Of a DNA stretch of 35,186 nt, positions 21,784 through 27,968 are shown in pieces. The DNA comes from an uncultured SAR86 cluster bacterium. GTDB lineage: Bacteria; Pseudomonadota; Gammaproteobacteria; Magnimaribacterales; D2472. The notes below the pieces were generated by a model that made no database searches, was not told the DNA's origin, and worked only from the letters and a program-made list of their open reading frames with translations. The translations under genes and the position numbers were made by a program. Location: the NCBI GenBank assembly GCA_902558395.1, contig CACEDS010000002.1:162043-197228 (forward strand), given 5' to 3'. The number at the start of each line of letters is the position of its first letter. Positions within the stretch are counted from its first letter, which is position 1.

Positions 21784-22920
21784 ATGAAAAGCAAATTTAT
21801 TGAAAGCTTATCTGAAATTTCATCTGTTGATTTCAATCAGATCATTGATGAAAAAGATGAGCCTTTCATGTCATATGAATATCTCTATGCATTGGAACAA
21901 AGTAAATCTGTTCACGCAAATAATGGCTGGCAATCATTTCACTTAACTCTGGCTGAAAAGGAAGATCTTTCAGGCTTTATTCCGATATACAAAAAAAACA
22001 ATAGTCATGGAGAATTTGTTTTTGATCATCAATGGTCTTATGCCCTAAGAAGAGCAAATAGAGATTATTATCCAAAATTACTTAGTGCTATTCCCTTTAC
22101 TCCTTGTGAGACAAGAAAATTTATAACTTCTCAATCTATTAACATCGAGAGTTTTACTAAACCAGTAATTGATTACATGAAAAAAAATGATATAGAGACA
22201 TGGCACATTCTTTTTCCAGACAAAAAACTTGCTAAAACTCTTATTGAAAACAATTTTATAGAGAGAAGTGGGTACAGGTTTGTCTGGAATAACAAAGAAT
22301 ATGAAAACTTTAATGACTTTCTTAAAATCTTTACTTCAAGACAAAGAAAAAATATTAAATCTGAAAGAAAGAAAATTCATGACTCAGGAATCAGTTTTTC
22401 AGTAAAAGATAATACTAATGTGACATTAGATGATTGGCTTGTTTTTTACGAATTTTATAAATCTACTTATCATGAACGAATGCAGGCGCCCTATCTTAAT
22501 TTTGATTTTTTTAATTTAGTCCACAAGTATAAAGATGCTCTTTGCCCTGTTATTTTTTTTGCTGAACTTGAAGGAAATAAAATTGCTGGATCACTATGCT
22601 TTCAAAGTAAAGATACTCTTTATGGAAGACATTGGGGCTCATCAATAAATATTGATAGCTTGCATTTCGAATGTTGTTATTATCAAGGGATTGAATACTG
22701 CATAAAAAATGGGATTAGCTTTTTTGATCCTGGCGTTCAAGGAGAACATAAAATTAGGAGGGGTTTTGAGCCAAGAGCCTCTAACTCATATCATTATGTA
22801 TTACATGAAGATTTTAGAGCAGCCATTGAATCTTTTTGTAAAGAAGAAGAAATTAGCATAAAAAAATATTTAGCAGCTTGCAGTGAATATACACCTATAA
22901 AAAAAGAATATAGAATTTAG
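21784..22920 (+). CDS. FemAB/GNAT-like protein of the COG3146 (DUF482) group
   Basis: The 378-residue protein looks like the family often labelled peptidogalycan biosynthesis or GNAT N-acetyltransferase. It has an early PFMSYEYLYALEQSKSV segment, SGFIPIYKKNNSHGEFVFDH, FTSRQRKNIKSERKKIH, and a C-terminal half with GRHWGSS, HFECCYYQGIEYCIKNG, FFDPGVQGEHKIRRGFEP. These proteins have two acetyltransferase-like halves, as in FemAB aminoacyl transferases. The biochemical role is not established. It lies between ubiA and yqiB on the same strand, with 10- and 2-base gaps. Confidence 0.8.
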   Translation: MKSKFIESLSEISSVDFNQIIDEKDEPFMSYEYLYALEQSKSVHANNGWQSFHLTLAEKEDLSGFIPIYKKNNSHGEFVFDHQWSYALRRANRDYYPKLLSAIPFTPCETRKFITSQSINIESFTKPVIDYMKKNDIETWHILFPDKKLAKTLIENNFIERSGYRFVWNNKEYENFNDFLKIFTSRQRKNIKSERKKIHDSGISFSVKDNTNVTLDDWLVFYEFYKSTYHERMQAPYLNFDFFNLVHKYKDALCPVIFFAELEGNKIAGSLCFQSKDTLYGRHWGSSINIDSLHFECCYYQGIEYCIKNGISFFDPGVQGEHKIRRGFEPRASNSYHYVLHEDFRAAIESFCKEEEISIKKYLAACSEYTPIKKEYRI

Positions 22921-22922
22921 GT

Positions 22923-23369
22923 ATGTTAAAAACATTGCCTGCAACTTCTCATCATCTGACAGTGTGTGAAGCAAATTTTATTAGGCTTAAAAAATTATTA
23001 AATAATTATTTATCAGATGAAGTCTTTTTTGAATCTATTAACCCAAATCAATCTTCTCTAAAAATTAATTTTCTTGTATTAAGTAAAACCAAACACACAA
23101 TAATTCTTGAAGCTAAACAGAGTGGAGATAAAAAAAATATTCACAGTAACTTTGTGCTAAGGGTTCAAATCAGCTTAGATGCAAAACTAGCAGAAGTTTT
23201 ATCTTATCAAGGTGAAAAACCTCTTCCTTTTTTTATGAATCAATCAAAAAGACAATCATTTGATGAGAAACTTCAGCAAAATAAATTCTTTACAGAATGG
23301 TTAGAAAGTATTTTTGTCTCAGGTATTTCAGGTAAGGAGCAAATTATTAGTTTATTAAATAATGACTAA
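22923..23369 (+). CDS. yqiB: DUF1249 protein YqiB
   Basis: The 148-residue soluble protein matches the YqiB/DUF1249 family: an N-terminal helical segment HHLTVCEANFIRLKKLL, then a beta-rich middle (FLVLSKTKHTIILEAKQ, RVQISLDAKLAEVLSYQG) and the end KRQSFDEKLQQNKFFTEWLESIF. Function is unknown. Its overlap with yqiA by 8 bases reproduces the yqiB-yqiA neighbourhood seen near parE/nudF in E. coli, although those genes are not in this window. Confidence 0.85.
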   Translation: MLKTLPATSHHLTVCEANFIRLKKLLNNYLSDEVFFESINPNQSSLKINFLVLSKTKHTIILEAKQSGDKKNIHSNFVLRVQISLDAKLAEVLSYQGEKPLPFFMNQSKRQSFDEKLQQNKFFTEWLESIFVSGISGKEQIISLLNND

Positions 23370-23937
23370 CACTATTCTTTATTTTCACGGATTTAAATCT
23401 TCTAGTGATTCTGGTAAAGCTCAGGAGTTTAAAAAATTTACAGAAAATAAGACATCTCAAACAAAGATTATAATTCCCGACTTAAAAGATGATTTCAAAG
23501 AAGCACACAAACAAATAGAAAGCCTTATTGATAAAAATAGTCCAAATATTTTATATATGGGGAGCTCATTAGGAGGTTATTATGCGCTTTATTTTGCGCA
23601 ACTTTATAAATCTAAATCAGTACTAATTAACCCGGCTATACCTCCACTGAAAGATTTTGAGATTCATCTTGGCAAAAATGAAAATTACGCTACTGGAAAT
23701 AAATTTACTATTTCAAAAGATGATATTTCTTATGTTAGAAGTCTTCATCATAAGAAAATTTTAGAACCGAAAAATAATTTAATACTATTAGAATCTGGTG
23801 ATGAAATTCTCAACTATGTTGAATCTTCTAGTTATTTCAGAGGTTCTTATATAGATATATTTTATGGTGGAAATCACTCATATACATCCATTAAAGAAAA
23901 ATTTACAAAAATCAAAGATTTTTTTAATCTAAAATAA
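23362..23937 (+). CDS. yqiA: YqiA-family alpha/beta hydrolase
   Basis: The 191-residue esterase-like protein has LYFHGFKSSSDSGKAQ (oxyanion-side HGF motif), the nucleophile elbow GSSLGG with Ser69, and C-terminal GGNHSY supplying the catalytic His; the acid is probably in LLESGDEIL. E. coli YqiA hydrolyses short acyl-CoA esters in vitro, but its true substrate is not known. It follows yqiB with an 8-base overlap. No T-rich terminator follows; the palindrome just after the stop is better explained as an NtrC-like site. Confidence 0.88.
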   Translation: MTNTILYFHGFKSSSDSGKAQEFKKFTENKTSQTKIIIPDLKDDFKEAHKQIESLIDKNSPNILYMGSSLGGYYALYFAQLYKSKSVLINPAIPPLKDFEIHLGKNENYATGNKFTISKDDISYVRSLHHKKILEPKNNLILLESGDEILNYVESSSYFRGSYIDIFYGGNHSYTSIKEKFTKIKDFFNLK

Positions 23938-23968: not shown

Positions 23969-23985
23969 TGCACTAAAATAGCGCA
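23969..23985 (+). promoter_or_regulatory. Downstream NtrC-like binding site of glnA
   Basis: TGCACTAAAATAGCGCA matches TGCACC-N5-GGTGCA in 9 of 12 specified positions and keeps the two-fold symmetry except for one base. Its centre (23977) is about 74 bp upstream of the predicted transcription start. With the site at 23939-23955 it resembles the paired NtrC enhancer of E. coli glnA, whose sites are also about three turns apart. Confidence 0.7.
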
Positions 23986-24024: not shown

Positions 24025-24040
24025 TGGCATGTAAATTGCT
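24025..24040 (+). promoter_or_regulatory. Sigma-54 (-24/-12) promoter of glnA
   Basis: TGGCATGTAAATTGCT matches the RpoN consensus TGGCAYRNNNNTTGCW at every specified position, with GG and GC at the required 10-base spacing. The predicted start is near 24051, leaving a leader of about 28 bases that contains AGGAG before the ATG at 24080. Confidence 0.9.
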
Positions 24041-24079
24041 TTATTAATAATGCTAAATAAAATTTTATTAGGAGAAATA

Positions 24080-25060
24080 ATGGCAGAATATAAAACTTAT
24101 GAATACATATGGCTAGATGGTTACCAGCCTGAAGCCAATATGAGAAGTAAGGTGAAGGCTACTGAAGCTGATACACCTCCAGATTGGTCATTTGATGGAT
24201 CATCTACACAACAAGCAGAGGGTGGTAGCTCTGATTGTTTACTTTTACCTGTTCAGACTTATGCTAACCCAAATGGACATGATATCGTTATGACTGAAGT
24301 TCAAGCAGCTGACCACACTACTCACCCATCTAATTACAGAGCAGCAGCCGCTGAGGTTGTTAGTGATGAATGGTGGTTTGGTTTTGAACAAGAATTCTTT
24401 TTTACAGACCCTGAGACAGGCGAGCCTCTTGGTTGGGAAAGTGGCACTCCTAAAGAACAAGGAGAATACTATTGCGGTGTTGGTGCGGGTAATGTTGTTG
24501 GAAGAGAAATTTCTGATGCACATCTACAAGCATGTCTTGATCTAGGAATTACGCTTACAGGTACAAATGCAGAGGTTGCTCTTGGACAATGGGAATACCA
24601 ATGTTTTGGTAAAGGTATTAAGGCAGCTGATGATCTTTGGGTTAGTAGATATTTGCTATTTAAAATTGCCGAAGAGTTTGGAGTTGGTGTAAACATTCAT
24701 CCTAAACCTAAAACAGGTGATTGGAATGGTTCTGGTATGCATACTAACTTCTCAAATGAAGCGATGAGAACTGGTGGTTCTGAAGAGCTATTTAACTCAT
24801 ACTGTGACAAGCTTGGTGAAGTTCATGAAGAAGGTATCGCGTCTTATGGATCAGATAATGACATGAGGCTTACTGGATTACATGAAACGCAAAGCATTGA
24901 TAAATTCTCATATGGTGTAAGTGACAGGGGTGCAAGTATAAGAATTCCTGTTTATACCGTTGAGCATAACTGGAATGGTTATTTGGAAGACAGAAGGCCT
25001 GCTTCTAATGCTGATCCTTATAAAATTTTGGCACATATTGTGGGAACATTAACCAAGTAA
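24080..25060 (+). CDS. glnII: Glutamine synthetase type II (eukaryote-like GSII)
   Basis: This enzyme forms glutamine from glutamate, ammonia and ATP. The 326-residue length, EYIWLDGY at the N-terminus, DWSFDGSSTQQAEG, GFEQEFFF, HPKPKTGDWNGSGMHTNFS and the C-terminal SIRIPVYTVEHNWNGYLEDRRPASNADPY are those of GSII, as in Rhizobium GlnII and eukaryotes, not the ~470-residue GSI of most gammaproteobacteria. GSII lacks the adenylylation tyrosine of GSI, so GlnE control cannot apply. ATG 24080 is chosen because AGGAG is 5 bases upstream and the sigma-54 start (~24051) excludes the in-frame ATG at 24050. ntrB and ntrC follow. Confidence 0.95.
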   Translation: MAEYKTYEYIWLDGYQPEANMRSKVKATEADTPPDWSFDGSSTQQAEGGSSDCLLLPVQTYANPNGHDIVMTEVQAADHTTHPSNYRAAAAEVVSDEWWFGFEQEFFFTDPETGEPLGWESGTPKEQGEYYCGVGAGNVVGREISDAHLQACLDLGITLTGTNAEVALGQWEYQCFGKGIKAADDLWVSRYLLFKIAEEFGVGVNIHPKPKTGDWNGSGMHTNFSNEAMRTGGSEELFNSYCDKLGEVHEEGIASYGSDNDMRLTGLHETQSIDKFSYGVSDRGASIRIPVYTVEHNWNGYLEDRRPASNADPYKILAHIVGTLTK

Positions 25061-25073
25061 TCTCACTAAAAAT

Positions 25074-25099
25074 ATCGACTCCTTGTAAAAGGAGTCGAT
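25074..25099 (+). terminator. Perfect hairpin between glnII and ntrB, overlapping the ntrB ribosome-binding sequence
   Basis: An 11-bp perfect stem (ATCGACTCCTT at 25074-25084 with AAGGAGTCGAT at 25089-25099, loop GTAA) lies 13 bases after the glnII stop. It is followed by TCTCTT, a poor U run, so termination is probably partial. Its right arm contains AAGGAG, the only Shine-Dalgarno-like sequence before the ntrB ATG at 25107. It may therefore lower both transcription and translation of ntrBC relative to glnII. Confidence 0.75.
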
Positions 25100-25106
25100 T
25101 CTCTTA

Positions 25107-26192
25107 ATGAACAATCCTGAAATATTTAATCAAAACATATTAAATCAAATTACCTCAGAGATTGTTGTCCTTGATAAAGATTTGAAAGTTGTTTGGATCA
25201 ACGATTCGGCAATTACAAATAACTGGAAAATATCAGATGAGAATACTGATATAAATTCTCAGTTTTCATTTCAAACCAATGCCGAATTAAAGCAATTAAT
25301 AGATGACTGTATTGATACTGGAAATACAATCATCAAAAGAGATTTCAAATTAGAAAAAGACAATGAAAAATATAGAATTGTAGATTTGACGGTAAATTGG
25401 TCTGAATCAGATCAATTGCTAATTTTAGAAGTTTTGTGCGTCGACAATTTACATAAAATTATTGATTCATCAAAAGTTTTTTCGACTCAAAAAATTGCAG
25501 CAAACTTAGCAAGAACATTAGCGCACGAAGTCAAGAATCCATTATCCGGGATAAAAGGTAGTGCACAAATCTTGATGAACAAACTTAATGATGATTTTTC
25601 AAAAAAATTTCTAGATATCATTATCAATGAAACAGAAAGATTGAATAATATTGTTACAAAAATACTCACGCCTCCAAAAAAACCAAAGCTGGAATTATTT
25701 AATATTCATTCAGCACTTGAAAAAGTATTTGCTTTATCGCAAGCCGATGAATATGAGAATTTAAAAATCCAAAGAGACTATGATCCAAGCATACCTGAGG
25801 TTTATGGAGATGAAGATCTTTTTATACAAGCCATTCTTAATATTTTTAAAAATGCTCAACAAGCATTAACTTTAACTGAAGAGCCTCTCATAACTATTAA
25901 ATCAAGAGTTACATATAGCCAGCCTATTAATGGTGTTATTCATTCAACTTTGTGTGAAGTAAGTATTATTGATAATGGACCGGGAATTCCACAGGACATT
26001 CAAGAGCAAATTTTCTTTCCTATGGTTTCATCAAAAGAAAGTGGGTCTGGGCTTGGTCTATCTATCTCTCAAGATATTATTAGAATTCATGGAGGAGCGA
26101 TATCTTTCAAAAGTGAATCGAGTGGAACAACTTTCTCAATTTTAGTTCCTATTAATATTGAATCCATAAGCGAGGAAGTAAAAAGTGCATAA
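25107..26192 (+). CDS. ntrB: Nitrogen regulation sensor histidine kinase NtrB
   Basis: NtrB (GlnL) is the soluble PII-controlled kinase/phosphatase of NtrC. The 361-residue protein has an N-terminal PAS-like domain (about 10-115), the dimerisation/phosphoacceptor motif TLAHEVKNPLSGIKGSAQIL with His140, and the HATPase motifs: N-box ILNIFKNAQQAL, G1 IIDNGPGIP and G2 GSGLGLSISQDI. There are no membrane segments, as expected. ATG 25107 lies just past the hairpin whose right arm holds AAGGAG. It overlaps ntrC by 8 bases. PII protein (GlnB) is not in this window. Confidence 0.95.
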   Translation: MNNPEIFNQNILNQITSEIVVLDKDLKVVWINDSAITNNWKISDENTDINSQFSFQTNAELKQLIDDCIDTGNTIIKRDFKLEKDNEKYRIVDLTVNWSESDQLLILEVLCVDNLHKIIDSSKVFSTQKIAANLARTLAHEVKNPLSGIKGSAQILMNKLNDDFSKKFLDIIINETERLNNIVTKILTPPKKPKLELFNIHSALEKVFALSQADEYENLKIQRDYDPSIPEVYGDEDLFIQAILNIFKNAQQALTLTEEPLITIKSRVTYSQPINGVIHSTLCEVSIIDNGPGIPQDIQEQIFFPMVSSKESGSGLGLSISQDIIRIHGGAISFKSESSGTTFSILVPINIESISEEVKSA

Positions 26193-27561
26193 AATTTGGG
26201 TATCTGATGATGACAATGCAATAAGGATAATCTTAGAAGAAAGTCTTAGCTCTTCTGGCTTTGATGTTAAAACTTTTTCATCTGGTGATGATGTTGTGAA
26301 TGAGTTGAAGAATGATAAGCCTGATTTAATTCTTACAGATGTCCAGATGCCAGGCATGCTTGGTTATGATTTACTCAAGCATATAAATGATAATTATGAA
26401 GATATCCCAGTCATAATTATGACTGCATTTACTGATATGCAAGCCGCAGTAGATTCATACGGTGGGGGTGCATTTGAATATATGCCAAAGCCGTTTGATC
26501 TTGATGATGCTATTCAGATTATAAACAGAGCTCTTGAAGATAAGCCAAAGACCAAAGGACTTAAGTCAAAACCTAAAACAGATATTATTGGAGAATCAGC
26601 TTCTATGCAGGCTGTTTTTAGAGCCATAGGCAAGCTATCAACAACAACAGCAACCGTTTTAGTTCAAGGTGAATCAGGGACTGGCAAAGAACTAATTGCA
26701 AAATCACTGCATAAAAATAGTCCAAGACACGACATGCCATTTATTGCTCTTAACATGGCCGATATTCCTAAAGAGCTTGTTGAATCTGAGCTATTTGGTC
26801 ATGAAAAGGGAGCTTTTACTGGAGCCGTTGACAGGCGCATAGGTAGATTTGAGCAAGCAAATGGTGGAACACTGTTTCTTGATGAAATTGGTGATATGCC
26901 ATTGGACTCTCAGACTAGGTTATTGAGAGTATTATCTAATAAAGAATTCTATAGGGTTGGTGGAGATAAACCAATAAAAGTAGATGTTCGAATTATTGCA
27001 GCCACTCACCAAAACCTTAATAACTTGGTATCTCAAAAATCATTCAGAGAAGATTTGTTTTATAGATTAAATGTTATAAAAATTAACGTTCCTCCTTTAA
27101 GAGATAGAAAGGAAGATATAGATGTTTTAACCAAATATTTCTTAAAAAATCATTCAGATTCCTTGGGTGAAGATTTAAGGGTCTTATCAAAAGAAGTTAT
27201 GGATGCCATAACAAAGTATGACTGGCCCGGTAATGTCAGACAGTTAGAAAATACATGTTATTGGTTAGCTTTAATGACACCAACTCAAAATGTAAAAGTT
27301 GAAGACTTACCTGAAGAAATTAAAGATCATGAAATCGCTGAAGTTCCATCTTCTTCTTGGGAAGAAGGTTTTAATAATTGGGTCACAAATGTTGCAACTT
27401 CTATAGACAAAGATCTGTTAGATATCGTAAATCCAAAAATAGAAAAAATCATAGTTAAAGCAGCCTTAGAAAAAAGTAATGGGAAAAAAAATGAGGCAGC
27501 TATTCTCTTAGGTCTTGGAAGAAATACTTTAGCAAAAAAAATGAAAGAACTTGGAATCTAA
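26185..27561 (+). CDS. ntrC: Nitrogen regulation response regulator NtrC
   Basis: NtrC (GlnG) is the sigma-54 activator phosphorylated by NtrB. The 458-residue protein has a receiver domain (phosphoacceptor Asp52 in LTDVQMPG, Lys102 in MPKPFD), an AAA+ domain with Walker A GESGTGKE (162-169), the sigma-54 contact loop GAFTGA (209-214), Walker [12 protein letters not shown] and the arginine-finger region, and a C-terminal Fis-type HTH ([21 protein letters not shown]). It starts with GTG at 26185 inside the end of ntrB. It is the natural activator of the sigma-54 glnII promoter upstream. Its stop overlaps the convergent rhodanese gene by 4 bases. Confidence 0.97.
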
Positions 27562-27968
27562 ATTAGAGGCAGATTATCCATTCTCCAATTATTAATTCCA
27601 CCAGATAAAATTAAAGTATCCTTGTGTCCTAAATTTTGAAGCTTCTCGCCAGCATTTGCTGACTGGCTGCCGGTCTCGCAAATTAATACCAAAGATACGC
27701 CCTCATATTTTTTTATTTCATGAGCTCTATCGTCAAGATTTGCAAAAGGAATGTTAATAGATCCTGTAATATGACCGTCATCAAAATCAGCACCAGGTCT
27801 CAAATCAATCAGTTTTACCCTATTCTGATTCGTTAAATTTATTAAATCTTGAGCAGTAATTTTCTTTCCGCCTTTTTTAGCACTTGATCTTATTAATAAA
27901 ACTATTGCTACTAGAAGTGGAGCAGAATAATAATAATGCTCAATTAGAAATAAAATAAACCTATCCAT
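27558..27968 (-). CDS. Membrane-anchored rhodanese-domain protein (YibN-like)
   Basis: The 136-residue protein has one N-terminal membrane segment (about residues 12-27, YYYSAPLLVAIVLLIR) followed by a cytoplasmic rhodanese domain: LIDLRPGADFDDGHITGSINIPF and the active-site loop ICETGSQSANA with Cys97. Such proteins carry sulfane sulfur, but the acceptor is unknown. In E. coli the similar YibN lies next to gpmM; here it is divergent from gpmA, giving a comparable neighbourhood. Confidence 0.87.
   Translation of the reverse strand: MDRFILFLIEHYYYSAPLLVAIVLLIRSSAKKGGKKITAQDLINLTNQNRVKLIDLRPGADFDDGHITGSINIPFANLDDRAHEIKKYEGVSLVLICETGSQSANAGEKLQNLGHKDTLILSGGINNWRMDNLPLI

Follow-up and report, generated by a model that had tools for sequence, protein, structure and literature searches.

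Ammonia enters cell material through glutamine synthetase, the gene for which lies in the glnA-ntrB-ntrC (glnALG) operon in enteric gammaproteobacteria. A stretch of 35,186 nucleotides from an uncultured SAR86 cluster bacterium (contig CACEDS010000002.1), hereafter the window, holds a type II glutamine synthetase (GSII) where the type I enzyme (GSI) is expected. How did this enzyme come to occupy the glnA position, is it the only glutamine synthetase of the cell and what controls it? The answer favoured here, with a probability of about 0.86, is that the sole glutamine synthetase is a transferred GSII that replaced GSI in place and is under nitrogen-regulation (Ntr) control, the activities of enzyme and promoter being predicted from sequence.

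The open reading frame at 24050–25060 (+) has an ATG at 24080, preceded by AGGAGA, that would yield a GSII of 326 residues. The GlnII profile NF041605 matches residues 7–324 (E = 1.2e-107) with 360 bits, missing the curated cut-off of 500, which is passed by none of 203 genomes of the order and by none of 14 controls; by this measure, the protein is a GSII outside NCBIfam's curated GlnII subfamily. Its best match among PDB sequences is 4bax (9.2e-89), and the 16 best are chains of 344–423 residues. Aligned to 4bax, 3fky, 7cpr and 2d3a, it keeps the segments EQE, EV..QWE, DWNG.G.H.N, RLTG.HET, RG.S.R and EDRRP, which we take to be catalytic. NtrB and NtrC equivalogs follow downstream, the latter scoring 636 bits against TIGR01818 (cut-off 559, passed) and 597 of the 620 bits required by a second NR(I) model, NF008176, just under its cut-off. 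Where other loci share this gene order and have a GSII 97–100% identical, their records are titled SAR86, which assigns the window to that group. Reading frames and profile matches thus confirm the arrangement proposed in an earlier note on this DNA, a glnA-ntrB-ntrC operon with GSII, not GSI, as its first gene.

That note had suggested a genome-wide search for GSI and GlnE, the presence of which would make the GSII an extra isozyme. Neither was found: a search for Gln-synt_C returns one match in the genome of origin, the window GSII, and GlnE gives none, an absence that is not final in a genome ∼93% complete. GlnE was likewise found in none of the 43 genomes searched (40 of the order and 3 titled Pelagibacter), GSI-bearing ones included, with positive results in 3 of 14 controls (E. 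coli, Caulobacter and Corynebacterium), in agreement with the claim that control by GlnE does not apply here. Five relatives assembled as single contigs (G049, G053, G112, G190 and G195; G numbers denote genomes, L numbers fetched stretches) have one Gln-synt_C match each, a GSII. Across the order, Gln-synt_C matches in 172 of 202 genomes, and strong GSI (435–441 bits) occurs only in G123, G130, G191 and G193. The GSII profile matches in 173 of 203 genomes, including G191 and G193, where the matches are weak cross-matches (2e-9 to 3e-9) and the sole Gln-synt_C match is GSI. In the single contig of G190 (family f4), the GSII profile match is in two pieces, reflecting a frameshift, a split gene or a sequencing error. 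The codes f1–f4 denote families of loci assigned here by NtrC identity and matching contigs. In f3, a GlnA-like paralogue (L126–L131, L149 and others; 463–467 residues in six copies measured) reaches 288–316 bits against PF00120 in 27 genomes, 25 of them with a GSII match too. It was not read as a GSI, six of seven fetched copies being 25–31% identical to GSI, L126 giving no match at 1e-20 and the flanking genes of the window standing around none of the seven.

Replacement in place is indicated by the locus itself. SAR86 loci of the four families share a frame, consisting of the gene at 21784, a YqiA gene, the glutamine synthetase slot, ntrB-ntrC where present, a rhodanese gene and a gpmA-like gene, and in most genomes the slot is filled by GSII; in L151 (G155, f3), GSII is the only frame gene recognised. 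In f4, the slot holds GSI in G191 and G193 and GSII in G182, G195, G198, G200 and G202. In G123 and G130 of f2, GSII is followed 17 and 14 bp downstream by GSI, then by ntrB and ntrC. The GSIs of G123, G130, G191 and G193 cluster together (97/94) within gammaproteobacterial GSI and are separated from the alphaproteobacterial GSI of Pelagibacter-titled genomes (100/100); because of this placement, the SAR86 GSI looks like the native gene. Co-transfer of an alphaproteobacterial GSII-GSI block into G123 and G130 was rejected on the same ground, their GSI joining SAR86 and gammaproteobacterial GSI. The residue presumed to be the adenylylation tyrosine is a phenylalanine in the GSI of G123 and G130 and is kept in that of G191 and G193, genomes in which GlnE was not found. 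Collectively, these same-locus intermediates support replacement rather than an isozyme, and with it the proposal of horizontal transfer with retention of the operon. In the scenario proposed, a horizontally transferred GSII would have landed immediately upstream of the native GSI and been brought under the native control region of the locus, the GSI presumably being lost afterwards. Without GSI and GlnE, control by adenylylation would be gone, and the level of GSII would be set through GlnD, PII, NtrB, NtrC and sigma-54 RNA polymerase at the putative promoter upstream (Table 1).

In support of this cascade, the window genome has two PII genes, one RpoN and GlnD (568 bits, over the cut-off). 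The sigma-54 promoter-like element and two NtrC-site-like dyads, the latter called with what we take to be the NtrC consensus, precede GSII. Exact sigma-54 matches occur three times in the window, so that the pattern alone is weak evidence. A survey of 80 fetched loci (L022–L101) covered the 200 bp before the EYIWLDG codons. Of the 36 f1 loci with intact NtrC, 29 have TGGC-N7-TTGC, standing 68–81 bp before these codons, versus 0 of 44 others (6 with NtrC lacking the AAA+ domain, 6 of f2 with GAFTGA, 7 without NtrC, 13 without GAFTGA and 12 Pelagibacter-titled); TGCA-N9-TGCA occurs within the 200 bp in 33 of the 36 and 2 of the 44, single-base shuffles giving ∼0; the loci are related and some near-identical, and the counts are of non-independent cases. 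A hairpin 3′ of GSII is found in 13 of 13 folded f1 ntrBC loci, and in most other folded loci, and may act as a partial terminator that limits read-through into ntrB. Because the conserved promoter and dyads precede GSII, nitrogen control is most likely transcriptional, and the simplest reading is that the retained Ntr cascade drives the gene. The earlier note had named transcription through NtrBC as the main control visible, a reading that the promoter pattern supports for the window and that needs correction for several SAR86 branches in which NtrBC is changed or lost. On contig C7 of the window genome, an exact sigma-54 match (L158:1532–1547, −) lies upstream of a gene for a 209-residue secreted-looking protein, followed by a PII gene; 22 of 200 shuffles of that stretch likewise give an exact match, and the unit is a possible second member of the NtrC regulon.

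Several observations weigh against replacement under Ntr control. No GSII-profile match was obtained in 30 of 203 genomes of the order, and among the 40 high-quality genomes, 3 gave none in the GSII search and likewise 3 in the Gln-synt_C search. The exact sigma-54 pattern is missing in 7 of the 36 f1 loci with intact NtrC (L035, L059, L066, L068, L070, L074 and L084), and G097, of the same genus as the window and 92% complete, gave no RpoN match. Finally, a tandem GSII-GSI in the SAR86 ancestor followed by differential loss fits equally well.

Table 1. Coordinates of the GSII operon and its flanking features in the window
Feature	Position	Strand	Remarks
YqiA-like esterase	23362..23937	+	Upstream flank common to f1, f2 and f4 loci; not recognised in f3 loci
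NtrC-site-like dyad TTGCATTAATTTAATGCAA	23938..23956		Contains TGCA-N9-TGCA; putative binding site
Second NtrC-site-like dyad TGCACTAAAATAGCGCA	23969..23985		Overlaps an inverted repeat; putative binding site
Sigma-54 −24/−12 promoter-like element TGGCATGTAAATTGCT	24025..24040	+	TGGC-N7-TTGC; ends 40 bp before the start codon
Ribosome-binding site AGGAGA	24070..24075	+	Sequence
GSII (type II glutamine synthetase)	24080..25060	+	326 residues; sole glutamine synthetase detected in the genome
11-pair hairpin in the GSII-ntrB gap	25074..25099		Inverted repeat (listed on the minus strand); no long T run after it on the + strand
ntrB (NR(II)) histidine kinase	25107..26192	+	361 residues; NF008293 254 bits, cut-off 240
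ntrC (NR(I)) sigma-54 activator	26185..27561	+	GTG start, 458 residues; GAFTGA and GESGTGK intact
Rhodanese-domain protein	27558..27968	−	Downstream flank common to SAR86 families

Among the neighbouring genes, the one at 21784–22920 is presumably a GNAT, named from the look of its sequence. The names gpmA, mutY, nnrD, acyl-CoA dehydrogenase and the glnB/glnK subtype are likewise presumptive and go by sequence appearance.

The origin of the GSII is indicated by its relatives. In a class sample of 321 genomes, GSII occurs in 17 besides three SAR86, at 43–59% identity, the matches of most genomes being weak and to GSI-length proteins. In a phylum sample of 398 genomes, 33 match, the window's own included, the best other at 56%. 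These sweeps, which gave nothing above 59% outside SAR86, are not exhaustive, the phylum sweep having missed Pelagibacter-titled copies of 86–91%. Rhizobial plasmid GSII reach up to about 52% identity to the window GSII, and marine viral contigs give 68% (L207) and 57–62% (L208–L228). L207 also carries a phage DNA ligase and Hsp20, and L222 a clamp loader, RegA and DNA polymerase. By similarity to L222, GSII lies in such a replication block in L211–L214, L220–L222 and L234; by similarity to L208, it lies near PhoH, exonuclease or dCMP deaminase genes in L208–L210, L215–L218, L223–L226, L228 and L231. None of these genes was seen by either similarity in L227, L229, L230, L232 and L233, and several phage contigs in the comparison are near-copies.

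In a careful unrooted tree of 74 rows, SAR86 and Pelagibacter-titled copies group together as a clade (100/98); L207 branches next to it (100/95), followed by ten phages (100/93) and then L229 (98/95). In another unrooted GSII tree, L207, a 16-row phage clade and L229 likewise lie outside all of SAR86, and strongly so. Three eukaryotic rows (yeast, fly and maize) cluster on their own (100/99), apart from SAR86. The phylogeny called for by the earlier note therefore puts the SAR86 enzyme beside marine phages, and the label ‘eukaryote-type’ used there is wrong as a statement of ancestry. The tests reject a clade uniting all 47 cellular rows (p = 0.0009) and one uniting the 39 main bacterial rows (p = 0.0019); for both, the groups were chosen after the tree had been seen. 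A single clade of the near phages is not rejected, with p = 0.073 for 12 rows and p = 0.325 once L229 is left out (11 rows), and in the best trees SAR86 GSII is nested inside the phage clade. Judging from these trees, kinship of SAR86 GSII with genes of marine T4-like phages is well supported, and a phage-to-host direction is favoured rather than proven.

Two observations on viral contigs stand apart from this. Near the phage GSII, a phage gene (L222:7096–8586 and L214:7108–8247) weakly resembles ribosomal protein S6 glutaminyl transferase (3.6e-9 in L222) and may point to a connection with amino-acid metabolism. The viral contig L273:1–6323 has a SAR86-like first part (upstream gene, YqiA-like gene and the start of GSII in a 146-residue reading frame), and its remainder looks like phage structural genes; it is probably a chimera or, less likely, a real junction.

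Transfer seems to have continued within SAR86 and beyond. A near relative of the window GSII is present in records under the titles Pelagibacteraceae or Pelagibacterales, and 36 of the 117 genomes in a sample of their order have it, at 86–91% identity. A clade of SAR86 without these copies is rejected (p = 0.0047), and therefore the Pelagibacter-titled copies would stem from within SAR86. L039, L050 and L101 have the order nnrD-like, PII, GSII, GSI, acyl-CoA-dehydrogenase-like, and GSI follows GSII in 11 of 12 Pelagibacter-titled loci among the best 80 of 327 confirmed related stretches, the rest of which may include nearer bacterial GSII. In L056:5457–8136, a PII gene and GSII are present and GSI is cleanly missing between GSII and the dehydrogenase-like gene; G549, which has an identical GSII and is taken as the genome of L056, gives a GSII match only. 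Apparently, the same replacement is under way there a second time, in parallel. Within SAR86, the GSII tree mixes f1 and f2 (an f2 clade is rejected, p = 0.0019; for f1, p = 0.051 is borderline), whereas f1, f2 and f3 are each a single clade for the neighbouring NtrB in a quick tree with long-branch warnings. GSII therefore seems to move between SAR86 families without its neighbours. Dating of the transfers by synonymous sites was tried and rejected, four-fold sites being saturated between groups (0.35–0.45) and most transfers too old; the exception is f1 g7 versus f2 g14, with 0.51.

Gene content indicates that the Ntr system that would govern GSII in the window has been taken apart in some SAR86 branches, which have an NtrC lacking GAFTGA or the AAA+ domain, or in which no NtrBC, PII, GlnD or RpoN was found. 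In genus g3 (G005, G006 and G010), GSII is present with no ntrBC at the locus and no match to PII, RpoN or GlnD, and the f4 genomes searched gave the same result. The 12 f2 genomes searched yielded no complete GlnD (17–18-bit matches only, in five g14 genomes) and no complete RpoN, of which G112 and G128 have fragments. The 31 f2 loci, some contigs being counted twice, comprise 8 that keep GAFTGA, 16 with full-length NtrC without it and 7 (L029–L032, L080, L093 and L155) with an NtrC of 256 residues, in which the receiver and the C-terminal helix-turn-helix are kept and the whole AAA+ sigma-54 domain is gone; for this kind, the two g12 genomes searched, G115 and G120, gave no RpoN. The changed loop reads GAFKGA in L040, L073 and L154 (f2 g14) and GAFAGA in L140 and L141 (G123 and G130), and RpoN was not found in the searched f2 genomes with an altered loop. 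Exceptions to a clean pattern, all >90% complete, are G127, with GAFTGA kept and no RpoN found, G134, with no PII found, and G097, again with no RpoN found. The NtrC of Caulobacter and Rhodobacter has lost GAFTGA and acts with sigma-70 (PMC10274813). Some SAR86 NtrC resemble it in their altered loop, with RpoN not found in those searched; unlike the deletion described there, the SAR86 loop is substituted in the five cases read, and in one branch the entire AAA+ domain is gone.

Other explanations differ widely in plausibility. That the GSII is an extra isozyme, with a GSI under normal GlnE control elsewhere in the genome, is very unlikely: a genome only about 93% complete and the retention of GSI in a few relatives (G123, G130, G191 and G193) would allow it, and the five single-contig relatives with a GSII as their one Gln-synt_C match, together with 0 of 43 genomes positive for GlnE against positive controls, argue against it. 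It is just as hard to credit that assembly or binning produced the pattern, with chimeric contigs behind the alphaproteobacterial copies or the genomes with a GSII-GSI tandem. Several records are metagenome bins and L273 looks like a chimera, yet the tandem recurs in two separate assemblies, G123 and G130, flanked by SAR86 genes on either side, and the Pelagibacter-titled copies share one context across many different records. Vertical inheritance, with GSI and GSII both ancient and GSII kept by SAR86, is improbable. It is deemed possible for ocean type II enzymes in an ocean survey of 2007 (PMC1821046), and the 17 of 321 gammaproteobacterial genomes with GSII at 43–59% identity would accord with it; both cellular clades are rejected, however, with phages in between, and GSII is intermixed between f1 and f2 where the neighbouring NtrB is not.

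A possible but doubtful alternative is that phages took GSII from SAR86-like hosts, so that the phage relatives would be copies and not sources. The single clade of near phages that the tests leave standing (p = 0.073 and 0.325) agrees with this, as does the statement in the same survey that viral acquisition of host genes is widespread (PMC1821046). However, both trees give strong support to a position of L207, the phage clade and L229 beyond SAR86 as a whole, and the recurrence of GSII in T4-like neighbourhoods in many phage contigs suggests long residence there. With phage-to-host transfer as the favoured direction, a bolder account can be put forward tentatively, at slightly less than even odds: a GSII of T4-like phages would have become the only glutamine synthetase of SAR86 by settling upstream of glnA with its Ntr promoter, and would later have passed, on its own, from SAR86 to an alphaproteobacterial order, several SAR86 branches then stripping down their Ntr system stepwise.

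Compared with enteric glnALG, the operon in the window is similar in gene order, in its sigma-54-type promoter with NtrC-like dyads, in the hairpin between synthetase and ntrB and in the NtrB and NtrC families, and differs in that its first gene is GSII, not GSI, and that GlnE was not found. GSII is known in some gammaproteobacteria, and the bacterial GSIIB of rhizobia, actinobacteria and some gammaproteobacteria belongs to the same enzyme family as the window GSII (PMC2978018). Identity of the window GSII is 41–57% to fetched gammaproteobacterial and 49–52% to three fetched rhizobial GSII; unlike GSIIB, the SAR86 GSII is a separate clade beside marine phages and the only glutamine synthetase found. 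In a non-SAR86 gammaproteobacterium (G321:C39:76916–81622), GSI and GSII matches lie about 3 kb apart.

In the Global Ocean Sampling (GOS) data, 1,021 type II glutamine synthetases were found, >90% of them on bacterial scaffolds, for a reason called unclear; their neighbours included PII, a histidine kinase, an A/G-specific adenine glycosylase and others, and 19 adjacent type I–type II pairs and a viral group were described (PMC1821046). These neighbours and pairs fit the SAR86 and Pelagibacter-titled loci. The survey passages concerned do not name the organisms; here, the fitting loci are titled SAR86 or Pelagibacter. Adjacent GSI and GSII genes in Frankia alni, cited there (PMC1821046), are like those of G123, G130 and the Pelagibacter-titled loci; unlike the Frankia pair, the tandem in SAR86 and Pelagibacter-titled loci looks like a stage towards loss of GSI. 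A paper on SAR86 isolates, which describes SAR86 as belonging to the most abundant bacteria in surface ocean waters, mentions glnA, amtB, gltB and gdhA, the type of glutamine synthetase not being given in the passages concerned (PMC11582366). Glutamine synthetase is also noted among viral genes of ocean samples in another report (PMC9083009). Titles and abstract openings in the literature covered, which mostly leaves out subscription papers, contain no report of a SAR86 GSII, of its replacement of GSI or of a phage origin.

Rarely can the exchange of a core enzyme in place be seen this clearly, with living examples of the states before, during and after it. Candidates for the organisms behind the puzzle of many type II glutamine synthetase genes, raised by GOS in 2007 (PMC1821046), are provided by the SAR86 and Pelagibacter-titled loci. 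SAR86 branches also offer a natural series of the loss of nitrogen regulation in small genomes, from a full Ntr system through an NtrC without sigma-54 contact and an NtrC without the AAA+ domain to none, and phages come into view as one potential origin of an enzyme of core metabolism. If the bolder account is true, a phage-derived GSII would have made GSI and adenylylation dispensable, and in alphaproteobacteria the loss of GSI would have begun again.

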